Source: Actinomycetota bacterium
Lineage (GTDB): Bacteria > Actinomycetota > Actinomycetes > Streptosporangiales > Streptosporangiaceae
DNA: 64,000 bases
Direction of reading: 5' to 3'
Assembly: GCA_021324595.1 (NCBI GenBank)
Contig: JAJPIV010000080.1
Location: 38,649 to 102,648, forward strand
Below are positions 3,886-64,000 of this stretch, in pieces. The position numbers were made by a program, and so were the translations under genes. The first letter of the stretch is position 1, and every line of letters starts with the position of its first letter. The notes under the pieces are model-generated. The model was not told the origin of the DNA, searched no databases, and saw only the letters and a list, made by a program, of their open reading frames with translations.

Positions 3886-6224
<2,339 letters not shown>

Positions 6225-7173: not shown

Positions 7174-8301
7174 GTGGCGCAGGTGGAGATCGGACGGGGC
7201 AAGAGCGGCCGGCGCGCGTACGCGCTCGATGAGATCGGCATCGTCCCGTCGCGGCGGACGAGGCACCCGGAGGACGTGTCGACGGCATGGCAGATCGACG
7301 CCTACCGGTTCGAGCTGCCCCTGGTCACCGCGCCGATGGACAGCGTGGTCTCCCCGGCGACCGCGATCGCGATCGGCAAGCTGGGCGGGCTGCCGGTGCT
7401 CGACGCGGAGGGGATCTGGACCAGGTACGCCGATCCGGAGCCGCTGCTCGCCGAGATCGCCGAGCTCGGCGACGAGGCCGCGACCGCCCGGCTGCAGGAG
7501 ATCTACGCCGAGCCGGTCAAGGAGGAGCTGATCGGGCAGCGGATCGAGGAGATCCGGGCGGCCGGGGTGACGATCGCCGCCCGGCTCTCGCCCCAGCGGA
7601 CGATCCGCTACCACAAGGCGGTGATCGACGCTGGCGCGGATTTCGTGGTGATCCGCGGTACCACAGTCTCCGCCGAGCACGTCTCCAGCCAGGCCGAGCC
7701 GCTCAACCTCAAGCACTTTATCTACGAGCTGGACGTCCCGGTGATCGTCGGGGGCTGCGCGACCTACACGGCGGCGCTGCACCTGATGCGGACCGGGGCG
7801 GCCGGGGTGCTGGTCGGATTCGGCGGCGGATCGGGCCAGACCACCGCGGCGGTGCTCGGCGTCAAGGTGCCGATGGCTACCGCGATCGCCGACGTGGCCG
7901 CGGCCCGGCGGGAATACCTCGACGAGTCAGGTGGTCGCTACGTGCACGTGATCGCCGACGGCGGGATGACGCGCAGCGGCGACATCGCCAAGGCGCTGGC
8001 GCTGGGCGCCGACGCGGTCATGGTCGGCTCCCCGTTCGCCCGGGCGGCCGAGGCCCCGGGGCGCGGCTACCACTGGGGCGCCGAGGCGCATCACCCGGAG
8101 CTGCCGCGCGGCGCCCGGCTCCGGGTGGGAACGGTCGGCACGCTCACGCAGATCCTGCACGGCCCGTCCACCGTCGCGGACGGCTCGATGAACCTCGTGG
8201 GCGCGCTGCGCCGCACGATGGCGACGTCGGGCTACTCCGACCTGAAGGAGTTCCAGCGCGTCGAGGTCGCGGTCACCCCCGGCGCCGCTCCCGGCCGCTG
8301 A
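7174..8301 (+). CDS. guaB3: GuaB3 family IMP dehydrogenase-related protein
   Basis: A 375-aa (beta/alpha)8-barrel of the IMPDH/GMP reductase superfamily. It keeps the phosphate-site barrel (VIADGGMTRSGDIAKALALG) but lacks CBS domains. Where GuaB has GPGSICTTR, this protein has VGFGGGSGQTTAAVLG: the catalytic Cys position reads Gln or Gly by simple alignment, so it is unlikely to be a conventional IMPDH. The GuaB3 family is widespread in actinobacteria next to guaB. The stop codon lies in a partial copy of the tandem repeat that follows immediately. Confidence 0.9.
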   Translation: MAQVEIGRGKSGRRAYALDEIGIVPSRRTRHPEDVSTAWQIDAYRFELPLVTAPMDSVVSPATAIAIGKLGGLPVLDAEGIWTRYADPEPLLAEIAELGDEAATARLQEIYAEPVKEELIGQRIEEIRAAGVTIAARLSPQRTIRYHKAVIDAGADFVVIRGTTVSAEHVSSQAEPLNLKHFIYELDVPVIVGGCATYTAALHLMRTGAAGVLVGFGGGSGQTTAAVLGVKVPMATAIADVAAARREYLDESGGRYVHVIADGGMTRSGDIAKALALGADAVMVGSPFARAAEAPGRGYHWGAEAHHPELPRGARLRVGTVGTLTQILHGPSTVADGSMNLVGALRRTMATSGYSDLKEFQRVEVAVTPGAAPGR

Positions 8302-8433
8302 GCGTGCCCGCCCCGGCCGCTGGGCGTGCCCGCCCCGGCCGCTGGGCGTGCCCGCCCCGGCCGCTGGGCGTGCCCGCCCCGGCCGCTGGGCGTGCCCGCC
8401 CCGGCCACTGGGCGTGCCCGCCCCGGCCACTGC
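8302..8433. repeat. Tandem repeat, 22-bp unit x6
   Basis: Six head-to-tail copies of GCGTGCCCGCCCCGGCCRCTGG begin at the base after the guaB3 stop. Copies 1–4 have G and copies 5–6 have A at the R position; the last copy ends C instead of G. The final 11 bases of guaB3 (CCGGCCGCTGA) match the end of one more unit, so the array runs into the gene. The remaining gap to the TetR gene (8434–8602) shows no further gene; it holds a -10-like box before the TetR start. Confidence 0.95.
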
Positions 8434-56857: not shown

Positions 56858-57729
56858 GGCTGCTGGTCACCGGGGGGAGCGGCTTCCTCGGACGGCACGT
56901 GCTCGCCGAGGCGGCCAGGCGCGGGCACGAGTGCGTCGTCCTGGCGCGCAGCGAGGCCGCCGCCCGCACGGTCGCCGGGCTCGGTGCCCGCCCGCTGGCC
57001 GGCGACGTGGGCCGGCCCGCCGGCCTGGCGGGCGCGTTCGGCTCGGCGCGCTGCGACGTCCTGGTCAACCTCGTCTCGCTCGGGTTCGGGCACGCCCCCG
57101 GCATCGTCGCCGCGGCGCGGGCCGCCGGCATCCGCCGCGCGGTGTTCGTCTCGACCACCGCGGTCACCACGAGCCTTCCGGTGCGGTCCACCCCGGTGCG
57201 CCTGGCCGCCGAGGAGCACATCCGCCAGTCCGGCCTGGACTGGACGATCCTGCGCCCGACCATGATCTATGGCGCGCCCGGTGACCGGAACCTGTCGCGG
57301 CTGCTCGCCATCCTCGCCAGGACGCCGGTCCTGCCGGTCCCCGGTGGCGGCGCGCGCCTGCAGCAGCCGGTCCACGTCGCCGATGCGGCCGCCGCGGTCG
57401 TCGCCGCGGCGCTGCGGCCGGCCAGCGCCGGGCGGTGCTACGACGTCGCCGGGCCCGAGCCGATGCCGTTCACCGTGCTCCTGCGGCACTGCGCGGACGC
57501 GGTCGGCAGGAGGACCAGGTTCGTCCCGGTGCCGCTCGGCCCCGCCGTGGCCCTCGCCGCCGCCTACGAGCGGCTCGCCAGGCACCCGGGCATCAAGGCC
57601 GAGCAACTGCGGCGGCTGGCCGAGGACAAGGCGTTCGCGATCGACGCCGCCGTGCGCGACCTCGGCTTCGCGCCCCGCCCATTCCCCGCCGGCATACGCG
57701 CCGAGGCCCAGGCCATGGGGCTGCGGTGA
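56854..57729 (+). CDS. NAD-dependent epimerase/dehydratase (extended/atypical SDR)
   Basis: A 291-aa Rossmann protein: VRLLVTGGSGFLGRHVLAEA at the N-terminus, then VFVSTTAVTTSLPV and ILRPTMIYGAPGDRNLSRLL. The usual YxxxK pair is not obvious, which fits the atypical NmrA/complex-I-like SDR group as much as a classical epimerase. Context suggests reduction or epimerisation of a nucleotide or lipid-linked sugar. GTG 56854 and GTG 57726 overlaps (GTGA) tie it to both neighbours. Confidence 0.83.
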   Translation: MRLLVTGGSGFLGRHVLAEAARRGHECVVLARSEAAARTVAGLGARPLAGDVGRPAGLAGAFGSARCDVLVNLVSLGFGHAPGIVAAARAAGIRRAVFVSTTAVTTSLPVRSTPVRLAAEEHIRQSGLDWTILRPTMIYGAPGDRNLSRLLAILARTPVLPVPGGGARLQQPVHVADAAAAVVAAALRPASAGRCYDVAGPEPMPFTVLLRHCADAVGRRTRFVPVPLGPAVALAAAYERLARHPGIKAEQLRRLAEDKAFAIDAAVRDLGFAPRPFPAGIRAEAQAMGLR

Positions 57730-59510
57730 CCGGGGCGGACGTCGCGCTGGCCGCCCGCACCGCGGTGCGGCTGCGGCCGTCGCAGGTCGCGCACCGGGCC
57801 AGGCTCCGGGCGCAGCGCGCGGCCCTGCGCCGGTGGCCCCGGGCCGGCCGCCGGCTGCTCGCCGGGCCCGATCCGGCCGGCGCGCGCGGCTGGCCGCGCG
57901 GCTTCGCCCCGCTCGACGCGCGGGCGGGGCTCGGCTGGCCCGGCCTGGCCGGCCTGGCCGGCGGCAGGATCGAGGCGCTGGGCATCGCCCGGGATCTCGG
58001 TGACCCGCCGGACTGGGAGCAGGCCGGCGCTCCCCGGCTGTGGCGCTTCCACCTGCACTACTGGGACTGGGCCTGGGGCCTGGCGGCCGAGCCCGACCGG
58101 GCGGCGGCGCGCGCCGCGTTCGCCGCGCTCTGGCGGTCCTGGCGTTCGGCGGTCACGTTCGGCCGCGGCGACGCCTGGCTGCCCTACCCGGCGGCCCTGC
58201 GCGCGTGGGCCTGGTGCGGCCAGCACCGGCCGCTGGTGGCGGGCGGCGAGCTGGAGCGCGAGTTCACCGCCGAGCTCGCGGCCCACTGCGGGTTCCTCCG
58301 CCGTCACCTGGAGGCCGATGTCGGCGGTAATCACCTGATCAAGAACCTCAAGGCGCTGGCCGGCCTGGCGGTGTTCTTCGGCGACGAGCGGCTGCTGCGG
58401 CGCGCGCTGGGCCGCCTGGCCGGCCAGGCCGCCGTGCAGGTGCTGCCCGACGGCGGCCACTACGAGCGGGCCCCGGCCTACCACTGCCAGGTGCTCGCCG
58501 ACCTCATCGACGTGGCGGGCCTGGCCGCCGCGGCCGGGATCGCCGCGCCCTCCGAGCTGGCCGTCCTGACCGGGGCGATCGGGCGGATGCGCGGGTGGCT
58601 CGGCCAGGTGCTGCTGCCCGGCGGCCAGGTGCCGCTGCTGAACGACGGCTACCCGGTGCCCGCGGCGCTCGTGGCCGCGTGCCGGCCCGGCCCGGCTCCC
58701 GCCCGGCCGCTGGTGGTGCTGCCCGGCAGCGGGCTGGCCCGCGCCACGGCCGGCGGCTGGCACCTGCTCGCCGACGTGGGCGCTCCGTGCCCGGACGAGC
58801 TGCCCGCCCACGCCCACGCGGACCCCCTCGGCTGCCTGGTCCACCTGGACGGGGCGCCGCTGCTGGTGGACACCGGCACCTCGGGTTATGAGCCCGGCCC
58901 GGTCAGGTCCTACGAGCGGTCCACCAGCGCGCACAGCACGGTCCAGGTGGACGGCGCGGACTCGACCGAGGTGTGGGGCGCGTTCCGGGCCGGGCGCCGG
59001 GCGCGGGTCCGTGACCTGACCGCCCGGGAGGACGCCGGGAGGATCATCATCGAGGCGTCCCACGACGGCTTCCGGCGGCTGCCCGGCAACCCGGTCCATC
59101 GCCGCCGCTGGACGCTGACGGCCCGGGAACTGCTGATCACCGACGAGGTGACGGGCTCGGGTCGCCACCAGGTGGCGGCCACCTGGCACCTGTCGCCCGG
59201 GACGCTGGTGCGGATCGAGCCGGACCTGGCCGGACGGGCCGCCGGCGGCGGCGCCGGCGTCCCGTGGTGCCGGTCGGCAGTGCTCACGGCCGGCGGCCCG
59301 GGCGGCCCGGCCGTGGCCGTCACGCTGCGCGCCTCCAGCCCGGCGCTTCTCCAGGCGGGCTCGGCGCCGGTCGCGAGCGGCTTCGCCCGCACGGTCCCGG
59401 CGCCGGTGCTGACCTGCCGCGTGGACGCCGCCCTGCCGGTGCAGCTCGAGGTCCGGCTGCGCCGCGTCACGGGCACCGGCCCCGGCCGGCCCGCGGGGGA
59501 GGCGTCGTGA
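57726..59510 (+). CDS. Heparinase II/III family protein
   Basis: A 594-aa protein of the alginate-lyase/heparinase II/III fold. N-terminal alpha/alpha toroid (LWRFHLHYWDWAWGLA, YPAALRAWAWC, GGNHLIKNLKALAGLAVFFG), catalytic-region PDGGHYERAPAYHCQVLADL, and a C-terminal beta domain opening with DELPAHAHADPLGCLVHLDG (conserved His-Asp) and RSYERSTSAHSTVQVDG. No signal peptide is visible, so a cytoplasmic role or non-classical export is implied. Such proteins often sit in EPS loci beside two-domain oxidoreductases. GTG start overlaps the upstream TGA. Confidence 0.88.
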   Translation: MTGADVALAARTAVRLRPSQVAHRARLRAQRAALRRWPRAGRRLLAGPDPAGARGWPRGFAPLDARAGLGWPGLAGLAGGRIEALGIARDLGDPPDWEQAGAPRLWRFHLHYWDWAWGLAAEPDRAAARAAFAALWRSWRSAVTFGRGDAWLPYPAALRAWAWCGQHRPLVAGGELEREFTAELAAHCGFLRRHLEADVGGNHLIKNLKALAGLAVFFGDERLLRRALGRLAGQAAVQVLPDGGHYERAPAYHCQVLADLIDVAGLAAAAGIAAPSELAVLTGAIGRMRGWLGQVLLPGGQVPLLNDGYPVPAALVAACRPGPAPARPLVVLPGSGLARATAGGWHLLADVGAPCPDELPAHAHADPLGCLVHLDGAPLLVDTGTSGYEPGPVRSYERSTSAHSTVQVDGADSTEVWGAFRAGRRARVRDLTAREDAGRIIIEASHDGFRRLPGNPVHRRRWTLTARELLITDEVTGSGRHQVAATWHLSPGTLVRIEPDLAGRAAGGGAGVPWCRSAVLTAGGPGGPAVAVTLRASSPALLQAGSAPVASGFARTVPAPVLTCRVDAALPVQLEVRLRRVTGTGPGRPAGEAS

Positions 59511-59626
59511 TCGCCGCGAGGGCCGGGGGCACTCGGGCAGGCGGCGTGCCCACGGGGAGGCGGCGTGGCCACGAGGTGGCGGACCGCGTGACCAGGGGAG
59601 AAGCGACCATGGGGGAAACGCCGTGA
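59507..59626 (+). CDS. Small coupled ORF, 39 aa, unknown
   Basis: GTG 59507 overlaps the heparinase stop (GTGA), and its own TGA overlaps the GTG start of the next gene (GTGA). The product, MIAARAGGTRAGGVPTGRRR then GHEVADRVTRGEATMGETP, is basic and polar with no hydrophobic segment and no family recognised. It may be a true small protein or simply a ribosome-passage ORF that keeps the two flanking genes coupled across 112 bp. Confidence 0.4.
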   Translation: MIAARAGGTRAGGVPTGRRRGHEVADRVTRGEATMGETP

Positions 59627-61794
59627 GGCAGGTCGTTCAGCCGCTCGCGGGCGGGCCGGTCCGGGTGCTCGACGTGCCACGGCCGGTTCCGGCGCCGACG
59701 GAGGTGCTCGTGCGCACCCTCGCCTCGGTGCTGTCGCCGGGCACGGAGAGCGCGGTCACCGCCCTGGCCCGCTCCGGCCTGGTCGCCAAGGCCCGGGCCA
59801 GGCCGGACCTGGCCCGGCAGGTCGTCCGCAGGGCGCGGGCCGACGGGGTCGCCGCGGCCGTGGGCGCGGTGCGGAGCAGGCTCGCCGGCGACATCCCGCT
59901 CGGCTACTCGGCGGCGGGCGAGGTGATCGAGGTCGGCGCCGCGGTGACCGGGATCCGGCCCGGCCAGGTCGTCGCGACGGCGGGGGCGGGCAAGGCGAAT
60001 CACGCCGAGTACCAGGCGGTCCCGGGCCTGCTGTGCGCCGTGGTGCCCGACGGCGTGCCGCCCGGCGACGCCGCGTTCGCCACCCTTGCCGCGATACCGC
60101 TGCATGCCCTGCGGCTGGCCGGGGTGGGCCCGGGGTCGAAGGTGGTGGTGATCGGCCTGGGCCTGATCGGCCAGCTCGCGGCCCGGCTCGCGATGGCGGC
60201 GGGATGCGACGTGGCCGGGATCGACCCGGCCGGGCACGCCCGGGACGCCGCGCGCGGCTCCGGGGTGCTGGCGCTGGAGGAGTCAGGCGAGGCGACTACG
60301 CAGCGGGTGCTCGCCTGGTCCCGGGGCCGGGGGGCCGACGCGGTGCTGGTGTGCGCGGCGACCCCCTCGGCGGACCCGGTCGCCCGGGCGCCCGGGCTCT
60401 GCCGGGACCGGGCCAGCGTGGTGATCGTCGGCGACGTGGGCCTGCGGCTGGACCGGGCGCCGTTCTACGCGCGCGAGCTGTCGCTGCTGTTCGCCCGGTC
60501 CTATGGACCGGGCCGGCATGAGCCGTCCTATGAGCAGTGGGGCGTGGACTACCCGCCCGGGCAGGTCCGCTGGACCGAGGGGCGGAACCTGGAGGCCGTG
60601 CTCGACCTGCTCGCGGTCGGCCGGCTCGCCGTCGCCGACCTGGTCACGCACCGGTTCCCGATCGAGGACGCGGCCCGCGCTTACGAGCTGATCGAGCGGC
60701 GCTCCGAGCCGTACCTGGCGATCAGCCTCAGCTACCCGGGGCCGCCGGCCGCCCCGCCTGCCCGGCCGGCGCCCGCGGCGCCTGCGGCCCCGCCGCCCGC
60801 GGCCGAAGCTGCGCTGCCCGCCGCGCGGCGGGCCGCCGGGCACGGCCCGATCCGCGCGCCCGGCGTCGGCTGGATCGGAGCGGGCTCGTTCTCCGGCCAG
60901 ACGCTGCTGCCGGCGTTCCGCGCCGCCCGGCTCACCAGCCTGGTGGCGGTGGCCTCGGCGAGCGGGCTGTCCGCGCGCTGCTTCGCCGAGCGGCACGGCT
61001 TCACCGCCGCCGTGAGCGGCGCGGGAGCGGTCATCGACCACCCCGAGGTGGATGTAGTGGTGGTCGCGACCCCGCATGACTCGCACGCCGAGCTCACGGC
61101 GCGGGCGCTGGCCGCCGGCCGGCACGTGTGGTGCGAGAAGCCGCTCGCGCTCAGCGCCGACGGGGTCGACTCGGTCGAGGCCGCGTGGCGGGCGTCGGGC
61201 AGGCAGCTCATGATCGGGTTCAACCGCCGCTGGTCGCCGGCCGTCCTGGCGGCCGCGCGCGCCCTCGCAGGCGTCCCGGGGCCGCGCTACGTGACTTACC
61301 GGGTCGCCGCCGGGCCGGTGCCGGCGGGCCACTGGTACCACGACCGGCGGCAGGGCGGGCGGCTGCTCGGCGAGGTGTGTCACTTCGTCGACACGGCGCA
61401 GGCGCTGGCCGGGGAACCGGTCGCGCAGATCCGCGCCGTGCTCGGCGGCGACGACCGCGACGGCCACGGCGTTCCCGGGGCGGACGCGGCCGTGTGCGTC
61501 AGGTTCGCCGCCGGGTCGCTCGCGGTGATCTGCTACGGCAGCGCGCGGTTGCGCGACGGCAAGGAGCGGGTCGAGGTCATGGCCGGGCCGCACGCCCTGG
61601 TGATCGACGACTTCAGGTCCGCGCGCCTGGACGGCCGGGTGCTCTGGAGGGGGAGGCGGGACAAGGGTCACCGGGCGCAGGCCGCCGCGTTCGCCGCGGC
61701 GATCTCCGGAGGGGCCGCGCTGCCCACCGCCGACATGATCGCCACCATGCGCGCGACCATCGCCGCCGCGGATTCCGGGGTGCGCGGTGATTAA
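59623..61794 (+). CDS. Two-domain oxidoreductase: MDR dehydrogenase fused to Gfo/Idh/MocA
   Basis: A 723-aa fusion. Residues 1–~365 are a zinc-type medium-chain dehydrogenase/reductase (ASVLSPGTESAVTALAR, IPLGYSAAGEVIEVGA, VVVIGLGLIGQLAARLAM). A Pro/Ala linker (~370–410) leads to a Gfo/Idh/MocA domain (GVGWIGAGSFSGQTLLPAFR, VVVATPHDSHAELTARALAA, VWCEKPLALS, HFVDTAQALAGEP). Both domains bind NAD(P), suggesting sequential redox steps on a sugar. This bi-domain family is found next to heparinase II/III genes in polysaccharide loci, as here. Last gene of the operon, followed by a hairpin. Confidence 0.9.
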   Translation: MRQVVQPLAGGPVRVLDVPRPVPAPTEVLVRTLASVLSPGTESAVTALARSGLVAKARARPDLARQVVRRARADGVAAAVGAVRSRLAGDIPLGYSAAGEVIEVGAAVTGIRPGQVVATAGAGKANHAEYQAVPGLLCAVVPDGVPPGDAAFATLAAIPLHALRLAGVGPGSKVVVIGLGLIGQLAARLAMAAGCDVAGIDPAGHARDAARGSGVLALEESGEATTQRVLAWSRGRGADAVLVCAATPSADPVARAPGLCRDRASVVIVGDVGLRLDRAPFYARELSLLFARSYGPGRHEPSYEQWGVDYPPGQVRWTEGRNLEAVLDLLAVGRLAVADLVTHRFPIEDAARAYELIERRSEPYLAISLSYPGPPAAPPARPAPAAPAAPPPAAEAALPAARRAAGHGPIRAPGVGWIGAGSFSGQTLLPAFRAARLTSLVAVASASGLSARCFAERHGFTAAVSGAGAVIDHPEVDVVVVATPHDSHAELTARALAAGRHVWCEKPLALSADGVDSVEAAWRASGRQLMIGFNRRWSPAVLAAARALAGVPGPRYVTYRVAAGPVPAGHWYHDRRQGGRLLGEVCHFVDTAQALAGEPVAQIRAVLGGDDRDGHGVPGADAAVCVRFAAGSLAVICYGSARLRDGKERVEVMAGPHALVIDDFRSARLDGRVLWRGRRDKGHRAQAAAFAAAISGGAALPTADMIATMRATIAAADSGVRGD

Positions 61795-61944: not shown

Positions 61945-64000
61945 ATGCGGAAACTGTTGAATTTACGGTTGGATGAGGGCATGACGCCGGCGGCCGCGGC
62001 CATCCTGGAGGGCATGCCCGGCCCCAGGCTCCTGCACCACGCGGACCGTGCCGGCACAACCTGGTTCCTGGCCGGATCGGCGCGGCTGGCCTGCTACCCG
62101 TCCGGGGACGCGGGGATGCGCAACGTCGCGGTGGCGGTACTGCGCCAGCTCGGGTTCGGCGGCCGGGCGGTCGCCGGGGTGATGGGGCTGACCGGGAATT
62201 ACGTCGCCACGCAGCATAACCGGGCGCTGCGGCGCCCGGGCCGCAGGCAGGCGAGCCGAAGGCGGAAGACGAGCCCGCGGCGCCTGAGCAGGAAGGCGAG
62301 ACCGAGGCCCGGACCGCGGCGCCCGGGCCCGCACCCTCGCCTGCCGGCGGCCTGGTCCCGGCGGGCGGGCGGGAGCGGTCGCCGGGCGCCGGGCTGGCCC
62401 GGGTCGCCGGCGGCGTGCTGCCCAGCCGGCATGCGGGGGTGATGCTGGCCCGCGCCTACCTGGACCGGATCGGCGCGGAGGCAATCCTGGCGGCCGGGCT
62501 GCCGCCCGGGCTGGCCCGGCCGCGGTATGACGACCTGGGGCTGCTGACTGCCACGTCGCTGGCGTTCGCGCTCGGGATGTCATCGGCGGAGGGGGCCGAG
62601 CACCTGATCCCGGCCCGGGCCGGGATCCTGGCTGGGGTCGGCCGGCTCCCCGGCCCCCGGACGCCGGGGCCCCGGCTGGCCGCGATCGCCGGGGCGTGCG
62701 GCCCGCTGGCCCTGCAGCGCCAGCTGGCCGCGGCGATGCTGGCCGTCGGCGCCCCGGGCCTGCACGCGTACTACGCCGGTGATCACTTCGTCCCCTGCGA
62801 GGGCGCCAGGCCCGTGGCTGGAACACCAAGCGCCGCCACGCCCAGCCCGGCCGCGCCGGCACCATGGTCGCCGGCTACCAGGGCCGGGCGGTGTGCCTCG
62901 CCGCCGGCGGGCCGTCCGGGCTTTCCGCCACCTTGCCGCCCGTCCTGGCCCAGCCGCGCCAGGTGCTCGGCGCGGAGGCGAAGATCATGCCCGGCTTGGA
63001 CCGGGGCGGCTCCTACCCGGTCGCCTTCCGCGCCATCCGCGAGCAGCGCGCCGACTGGGTCACCTGGCGGCGCGGCCCGCTCGCCCAGGTCACCGCCGCG
63101 CCGCGCCGGCACTGGGCCGCCCCCGGCGACGGCAGGCCCGCCGAAGTCCTCACCCTCGCCGATGAGAGCGCGGAGATCAAGGACAACGGCGAGGCCCGGC
63201 AGATCACCTTGTCCGAGGACGGCGTCCCGGTGCTGCAGGTGCTCACCAGCGACACCACCGCCCCGGCGGTGGCGCTGCTGGCCTGGCTGCGCTGCCGGTG
63301 GCGGATCGGGAACCTGTTCAAGTACCCGGAGTCCCGCTACGGCATCCACTGGCTGTGCGACTACCACGCCAGCCCCGAAGACGACGACCACCTGACCGCC
63401 ACCCCGACGCAAGGCCGCCCGCGCCCGGCAGCGCCAGGCCGAGGCGGCCCTGGCCGCCGCCGAGTGGGCGCTCGCCGCCGTGATCTCCGCCCCGGACCTT
63501 TCCGCCGCCGCCAAGAACAAGGCCGCCCCGGCCGCCGAGAACAAGATCACCAAGGCCAGGGACGCCGTCACCGCGGCGAAGGCGGCGCTCAAGCACACCC
63601 CCGCTAAGCTGCCCGCCAGCCAGGCCACCCCCGGCGCGCAGAAGGCCATCCTGGCCACCCGGCGCCGCTCCCTGCAGATGGTCCTGCGGCAGCTCGCCGC
63701 CGCCGCCGGGCACTGGCCCGGCAACCGGCTCAACGACTACCCGCGCGACCCCGGCGAATACCGGGCCATCACCCGCCGCCTGCTCCACCCCGGCGGCCAG
63801 ATCACCCGCACGCCCCCCGCGTGATCACCGCGACCCACGATCCGCCCGCCCCGCCCCGGATCACCCGCGCCCTCGCCCTGCCCCCCGAGCAGATCAACGC
63901 AACCCCGCCCCGCATGCCCGGCGACAGCCCCGCCCATCACCTACCAGCCCGCGGCACCGCCAATCTGACAACGATCAAGGACCGACTTCCGGAGATCTGA
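61945..64000 (+). pseudogene. Transposase pseudogene with at least four frame changes
   Basis: The pieces read in order as one DDE-type transposase. Frame 1 from ATG 61945 gives an HTH-like N-terminus (AVLRQLGFGGRAVAGVMGLT). Frame 3, from about 62225, gives a Pro/Glu linker, YDDLGLLTATSLAFALGMSS and YYAGDHFVPCEGARPVA. A shift near 62818 moves to frame 2: WNTKRRHAQPGRAG, KIMPGLDRGGSYPVAFRAIR, LRCRWRIGNLFKYPESRYGI. A shift near 63405 returns to frame 3: RKAARARQRQAEAALAAAEW to TGA 63824. Frame 2 from 63821 then ends TANLTTIKDRLPEI at 64000. Candidate catalytic acids are D in GDHF and D in GLDRGG; the WRIGN position, where an E is expected, reads G. Confidence 0.85.
63981..64000 (-). repeat. Right terminal inverted repeat of the insertion sequence
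   Basis: ACCGACTTCCGGAGATCTGA, ending at the last base of the window. The transposase's terminal TGA is the last three bases of the repeat. Confidence 0.85.

Follow-up and report, generated by a model that had tools for sequence, protein, structure and literature searches.

A 39-codon frame doubly overlapping its neighbours in an actinomycetotal operon, perhaps a translated lineage-specific spacer at an old GTGA junction

In mycobacteria, "coupled" small ORFs are linked to the next gene by an RTGA overlap, and at least one of them combines a conserved linkage with a non-conserved peptide sequence (Shell et al., 2015; PMC4633059). A second route to such an arrangement is provided by the MIRU elements, which insert at start codons and couple to the genes there by a -4 nt overlap (Supply et al., 1997, as described in PMC12548453). 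Genes may also be joined directly, by 4-nt overlaps at which termination is followed by reinitiation (PMC6728339), and mgtQ is described as an intergenic small ORF that promotes translation of mgtB (PMC8092293). The architecture considered here, a small frame coupled by overlapping codons, is thus already known from coupled small ORFs and MIRU.

The present frame lies in a stretch of 64,000 nucleotides (the window) from contig JAJPIV010000080.1 of an Actinomycetota bacterium, and its translation reads VIAARAGGTRAGGVPTGRRRGHEVADRVTRGEATMGETP. Its GTG start is placed within the GTGA that ends a heparinase gene, the stop of which is the TGA at 59508-59510, while its own stop (TGA, 59624-59626) is part of the GTGA at 59623-59626 that opens an oxidoreductase gene with the GTG at 59623-59625 (Table 1). 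The original prediction of a doubly overlapping 39-codon frame was exact in its coordinates, and both flanking genes are real by Pfam. The same reading frame is free of stops already from 59015, deep within the heparinase gene, and an alternative in-frame ATG would open a five-codon minicistron sharing the stop TGA of the longer frame. A longer oxidoreductase with an upstream start was rejected, as there is no in-frame ATG, GTG or TTG before 59623 and the N-terminus MRQVVQP... aligns with MKQVVQP, at which the relatives align. Upstream, genes for a family-4 glycosyl transferase (PF00953), a GT4/GT1-type glycosyl transferase and an SDR/epimerase-like protein precede the heparinase II/III gene, so that the set looks like a polysaccharide operon. 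The junctions between the second glycosyl transferase and the epimerase and between the epimerase and the heparinase (57726-57729) are 4-nt GTGA overlaps. On the 3' side of the oxidoreductase, 61945-63824 holds several overlapping frames on the + strand and no clean gene; it has the look of a gene that decayed or was frameshifted, by eye resembling a transposase, and Pfam matched none of four of its frames at E values up to 0.1.

Table 1. Coordinates of the bridging frame, its neighbours and associated signals in the window
Feature	Position	Strand	Basis and remarks
Heparinase II/III-family gene, 594 aa	57726..59510	+	Heparinase II/III C-terminal domain PF07940 (Pfam, 4.6e-46); gene calls, junctions
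Strong Shine-Dalgarno GGGGGAGG	59495..59502	+	4 nt 5' of GTG 59507; dG -10.4 kcal/mol
39-codon bridging frame	59507..59626	+	GTG...TGA, 4-nt overlap at both ends; coding score -0.10
19-bp tandem repeat CGGGGAGGCGGCGTGCCCA, 2.6 copies	59534..59582	+	TRF; SD-plus-GTG-like units
Alternative in-frame ATG, 5-codon minicistron (MGETP, stop)	59609..59626	+	SD AGGGGAG at 59594-59600, dG -8.2
Own Shine-Dalgarno of the oxidoreductase, GGGGGA	59611..59616	+	dG -8.4
Bi-domain oxidoreductase gene, zinc-ADH-like and GFO/IDH/MocA	59623..61794	+	Pfam; homologue starts

The most informative comparison comes from locus L040 of genome G058, which belongs to the same phylum but another class. It is the only relative found that shares the five-gene order, from the family-4 glycosyl transferase through the second glycosyl transferase, epimerase and heparinase to the oxidoreductase, with identities of 50, 68, 65, 51 and 63%, respectively, and its heparinase and oxidoreductase genes are joined by one direct GTGA overlap (4066-4069) without a small frame. 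Relatives with directly adjacent flanking genes had been named beforehand as evidence that would count against the prediction, and this is such a case. In L012, the heparinase is followed by the oxidoreductase after a short spacer that holds no bridging frame. In L057 a different gene, asparagine-synthetase-like by eye, overlaps the orthologous oxidoreductase by ATGA, and in L011 a gene on the opposite strand lies between the heparinase and an oxidoreductase about 2 kb away. The heparinase end of L011 (3022-3060) keeps GAGGAGG-cggtc-GTGAAGC, which resembles an oxidoreductase start and may be a fossil of one. The same-genus genomes searched hold no heparinase and no close oxidoreductase, so that acquisition, or repeated loss, is the probable history of the operon.

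The Shine-Dalgarno sequence at GTG 59507 is the strongest of the 52 found at xTGA gene ends that do not coincide with the start of another called gene (median -3.2), and true 4-nt-overlap starts have a median of -6.5. The heparinase genes of L040 (-9.5) and L011 (-11.9) likewise end at a GTGA preceded by a Shine-Dalgarno sequence. This, together with the top rank of the signal, suggests that the GTG at 59507 is probably a former oxidoreductase start, and the rank itself makes initiation there at the present day plausible, and indeed likely. On balance, we lean towards the reading that a lineage-specific spacer of 116 nt sits at an old GTGA junction and is perhaps translated as a relay, with the peptide as a by-product; the ancestral state, the translation of the frame and the relay effect are all things we infer. 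The ancestral junction between heparinase and oxidoreductase was probably a single Shine-Dalgarno-GTGA overlap like the other junctions of the operon, into which about 116 nt, consisting in part of short tandem repeats resembling a Shine-Dalgarno sequence with a start, would have entered in this lineage. The old start, GGGGGAGG-cgtc-GTGA, would have been retained at the heparinase end, while the oxidoreductase kept its own start with its own Shine-Dalgarno sequence. Ribosomes ending the heparinase probably re-initiate at GTG 59507 and translate the frame, and those stopping at 59626 could re-initiate at 59623, which would at most help translation of the oxidoreductase. Against this reading stands that the polarity of the change is taken from one direct syntenic relative, L040, and indirect signs, and that the codon score of the frame exceeds nearly all off-frame gene stretches and about 95% of open shuffled spacers.

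It had also been argued that chance would rarely give a small frame with such overlaps at both ends, which did not hold for a genome of 75% GC. A simple codon-usage gene caller, which places starts approximately, was applied to 394,478 bases of this genome and gave 130 co-directional gaps of 20-400 nt, 80 of them of at least 80 nt. The upstream gene ended in an xTGA containing a start codon at 33 of the 130 gaps and the downstream gene started with xTGA at 40, so that 10.2 gaps with xTGA at both sides are expected under independence; 10 were found, four of them in frame and the same number fully bridged. With stop-free probabilities from shuffled spacers, about 2.1 bridged frames are expected in the 130 gaps, against the four observed. 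For gaps of at least 80 nt, about 1.1 bridges are expected and one was observed, the 59507 frame itself; genome-wide, gaps of this size should hold about 11 doubly overlapping bridging frames. The 116-nt spacer stays open in 64% of shuffles. Three further frames in the contigs from the same genome (L063-L079 and the window) bridge gaps of 22, 49 and 58 nt, each opening in a GTGA and closing in an RTGA, and none is like the 59507 frame by eye. Furthermore, 21 of 23 oxidoreductase homologues open with ATGA, GTGA or TTGA regardless of the preceding gene or intergenic region; the downstream overlap is nearly free, because residue 2 of the oxidoreductase is Lys or Arg. As about 40% of genes start with xTGA, about 40% end with it and stops are rare, bridging frames with double overlaps arise by themselves, and the 39-codon frame can be accounted for by a retained GTGA, a Lys/Arg second codon, a one-in-three chance of matching frames and the scarcity of stops at 75-78% GC. 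As the evidence stands, these base rates are the main lesson: in this high-GC genome the architecture of a doubly overlapping bridging frame is insufficient on its own for calling a gene.

The same figures fit pure coincidence, in which the frame is not usefully translated and the oxidoreductase initiates independently. The match between observed and expected bridges, the Shine-Dalgarno sequence that the oxidoreductase has of its own and the weak codon signal of the frame all agree with this, but the Shine-Dalgarno sequence at GTG 59507, the strongest of the 52 comparable gene ends, makes initiation there likely, and we regard coincidence as possible though somewhat doubtful. The original prediction had offered two options, a basic 39-aa protein or a frame whose translation carries ribosomes from the heparinase to the oxidoreductase. 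The second of these fared better: it is possible because of the unusually strong signal at the first GTG, and is weakened by the oxidoreductase's own Shine-Dalgarno sequence and the direct junction in L040.

A MIRU-like mobile insertion into the GTGA start site, with an own frame ending in GTGA that preserved the coupling, would account for a 116-nt block with GTGA on both sides where L040 has a single one, and MIRU insertion sites offer a precedent. However, a DNA search of the whole genome gave no second copy of the block, and its sole non-self match was a stretch of 49 nt with 82% identity within a short-chain-dehydrogenase-looking gene, so this origin is very improbable. More specifically, an element of this kind outside mycobacteria, which enters GTGA coupling sites and keeps the coupling through its own frame of reiterated Shine-Dalgarno-start units, is likewise very improbable. 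The score of the 19-bp repeat was reached by none of 2000 dinucleotide shuffles, yet the window holds about three dozen arrays scoring at least 50; by far the strongest of these is located at 8285-8432 (22-bp unit, 6.7 copies, 97% matches, TRF score 266). An excess of strong Shine-Dalgarno-start units within the spacer was not convincing, with three against 1.0 in shuffles, 6.4% of which reach three. Other candidates were set aside as well: the spacer has no Rfam match, its predicted fold is unremarkable (17 of 200 shuffles fold equally well), and TANNNT, the only promoter type covered, is absent from 59401-59622, where an internal oxidoreductase promoter was sought.

The codon usage of the frame is that of a poor gene. 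Its GC content by codon position is 74/72/85%, compared with 81/62/97% for the heparinase, and 99% of 39-codon stretches from real genes have a higher codon score. A score as high as that of the frame is reached by 18% of intergenic stretches without a stop and by 5% of shuffled spacers that stay open. The peptide matched nothing in Pfam or NCBIfam and had no relatives in the loci or plasmids compared, and the plasmid collection contained distant oxidoreductases only, without the spacer. A functional 39-aa protein is unlikely, and as a basic protein encoded by the operon it is the least credible of the explanations: the frame is intact, its Shine-Dalgarno sequence is strong and third-position GC is above that of the other two positions, but it is absent from L040 and L012, its codon score falls within the bottom 1% for stretches of real genes, the repeat period of 19 is not a multiple of three, and there are no homologues. 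Real-gene codon usage and conserved residues, as expected of a functional small protein, are both lacking, and the base rates, the weak codon signal and the lack of the frame in a related operon together show that this is not a conserved small protein.

Returning to the described systems, the TGA of the 59507 frame overlaps the downstream RTG start as in the mycobacterial coupled small ORFs. Its linkage, however, is neither above chance, the frequency being as expected, nor conserved, with L040 and L012 lacking it; and while the mycobacterial examples were analysed mainly where they come first in leaderless transcripts, this frame lies between two operon genes. With MIRU it shares a short block at a start site, a frame whose -4 nt coupling lies where the block would have inserted and a minimised disturbance of the operon, but the block is single copy and shows no sign of mobility or of belonging to a dispersed repeat family. 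Like mgtQ, the frame is small and intergenic and might affect the following gene in cis, whereas mgtQ is described as using alternative stem-loops and acidic residues, and the fold of the present spacer has a z of -1.57. The direct 4-nt overlap junction is the state in L040 and the probable ancestral state of the junction in the window, where the heparinase and oxidoreductase genes, unlike in such a junction, now lie 112 nt apart with the frame between them. If the relay is real, this would be an operon that has stayed coupled although a new spacer was acquired between two of its genes.
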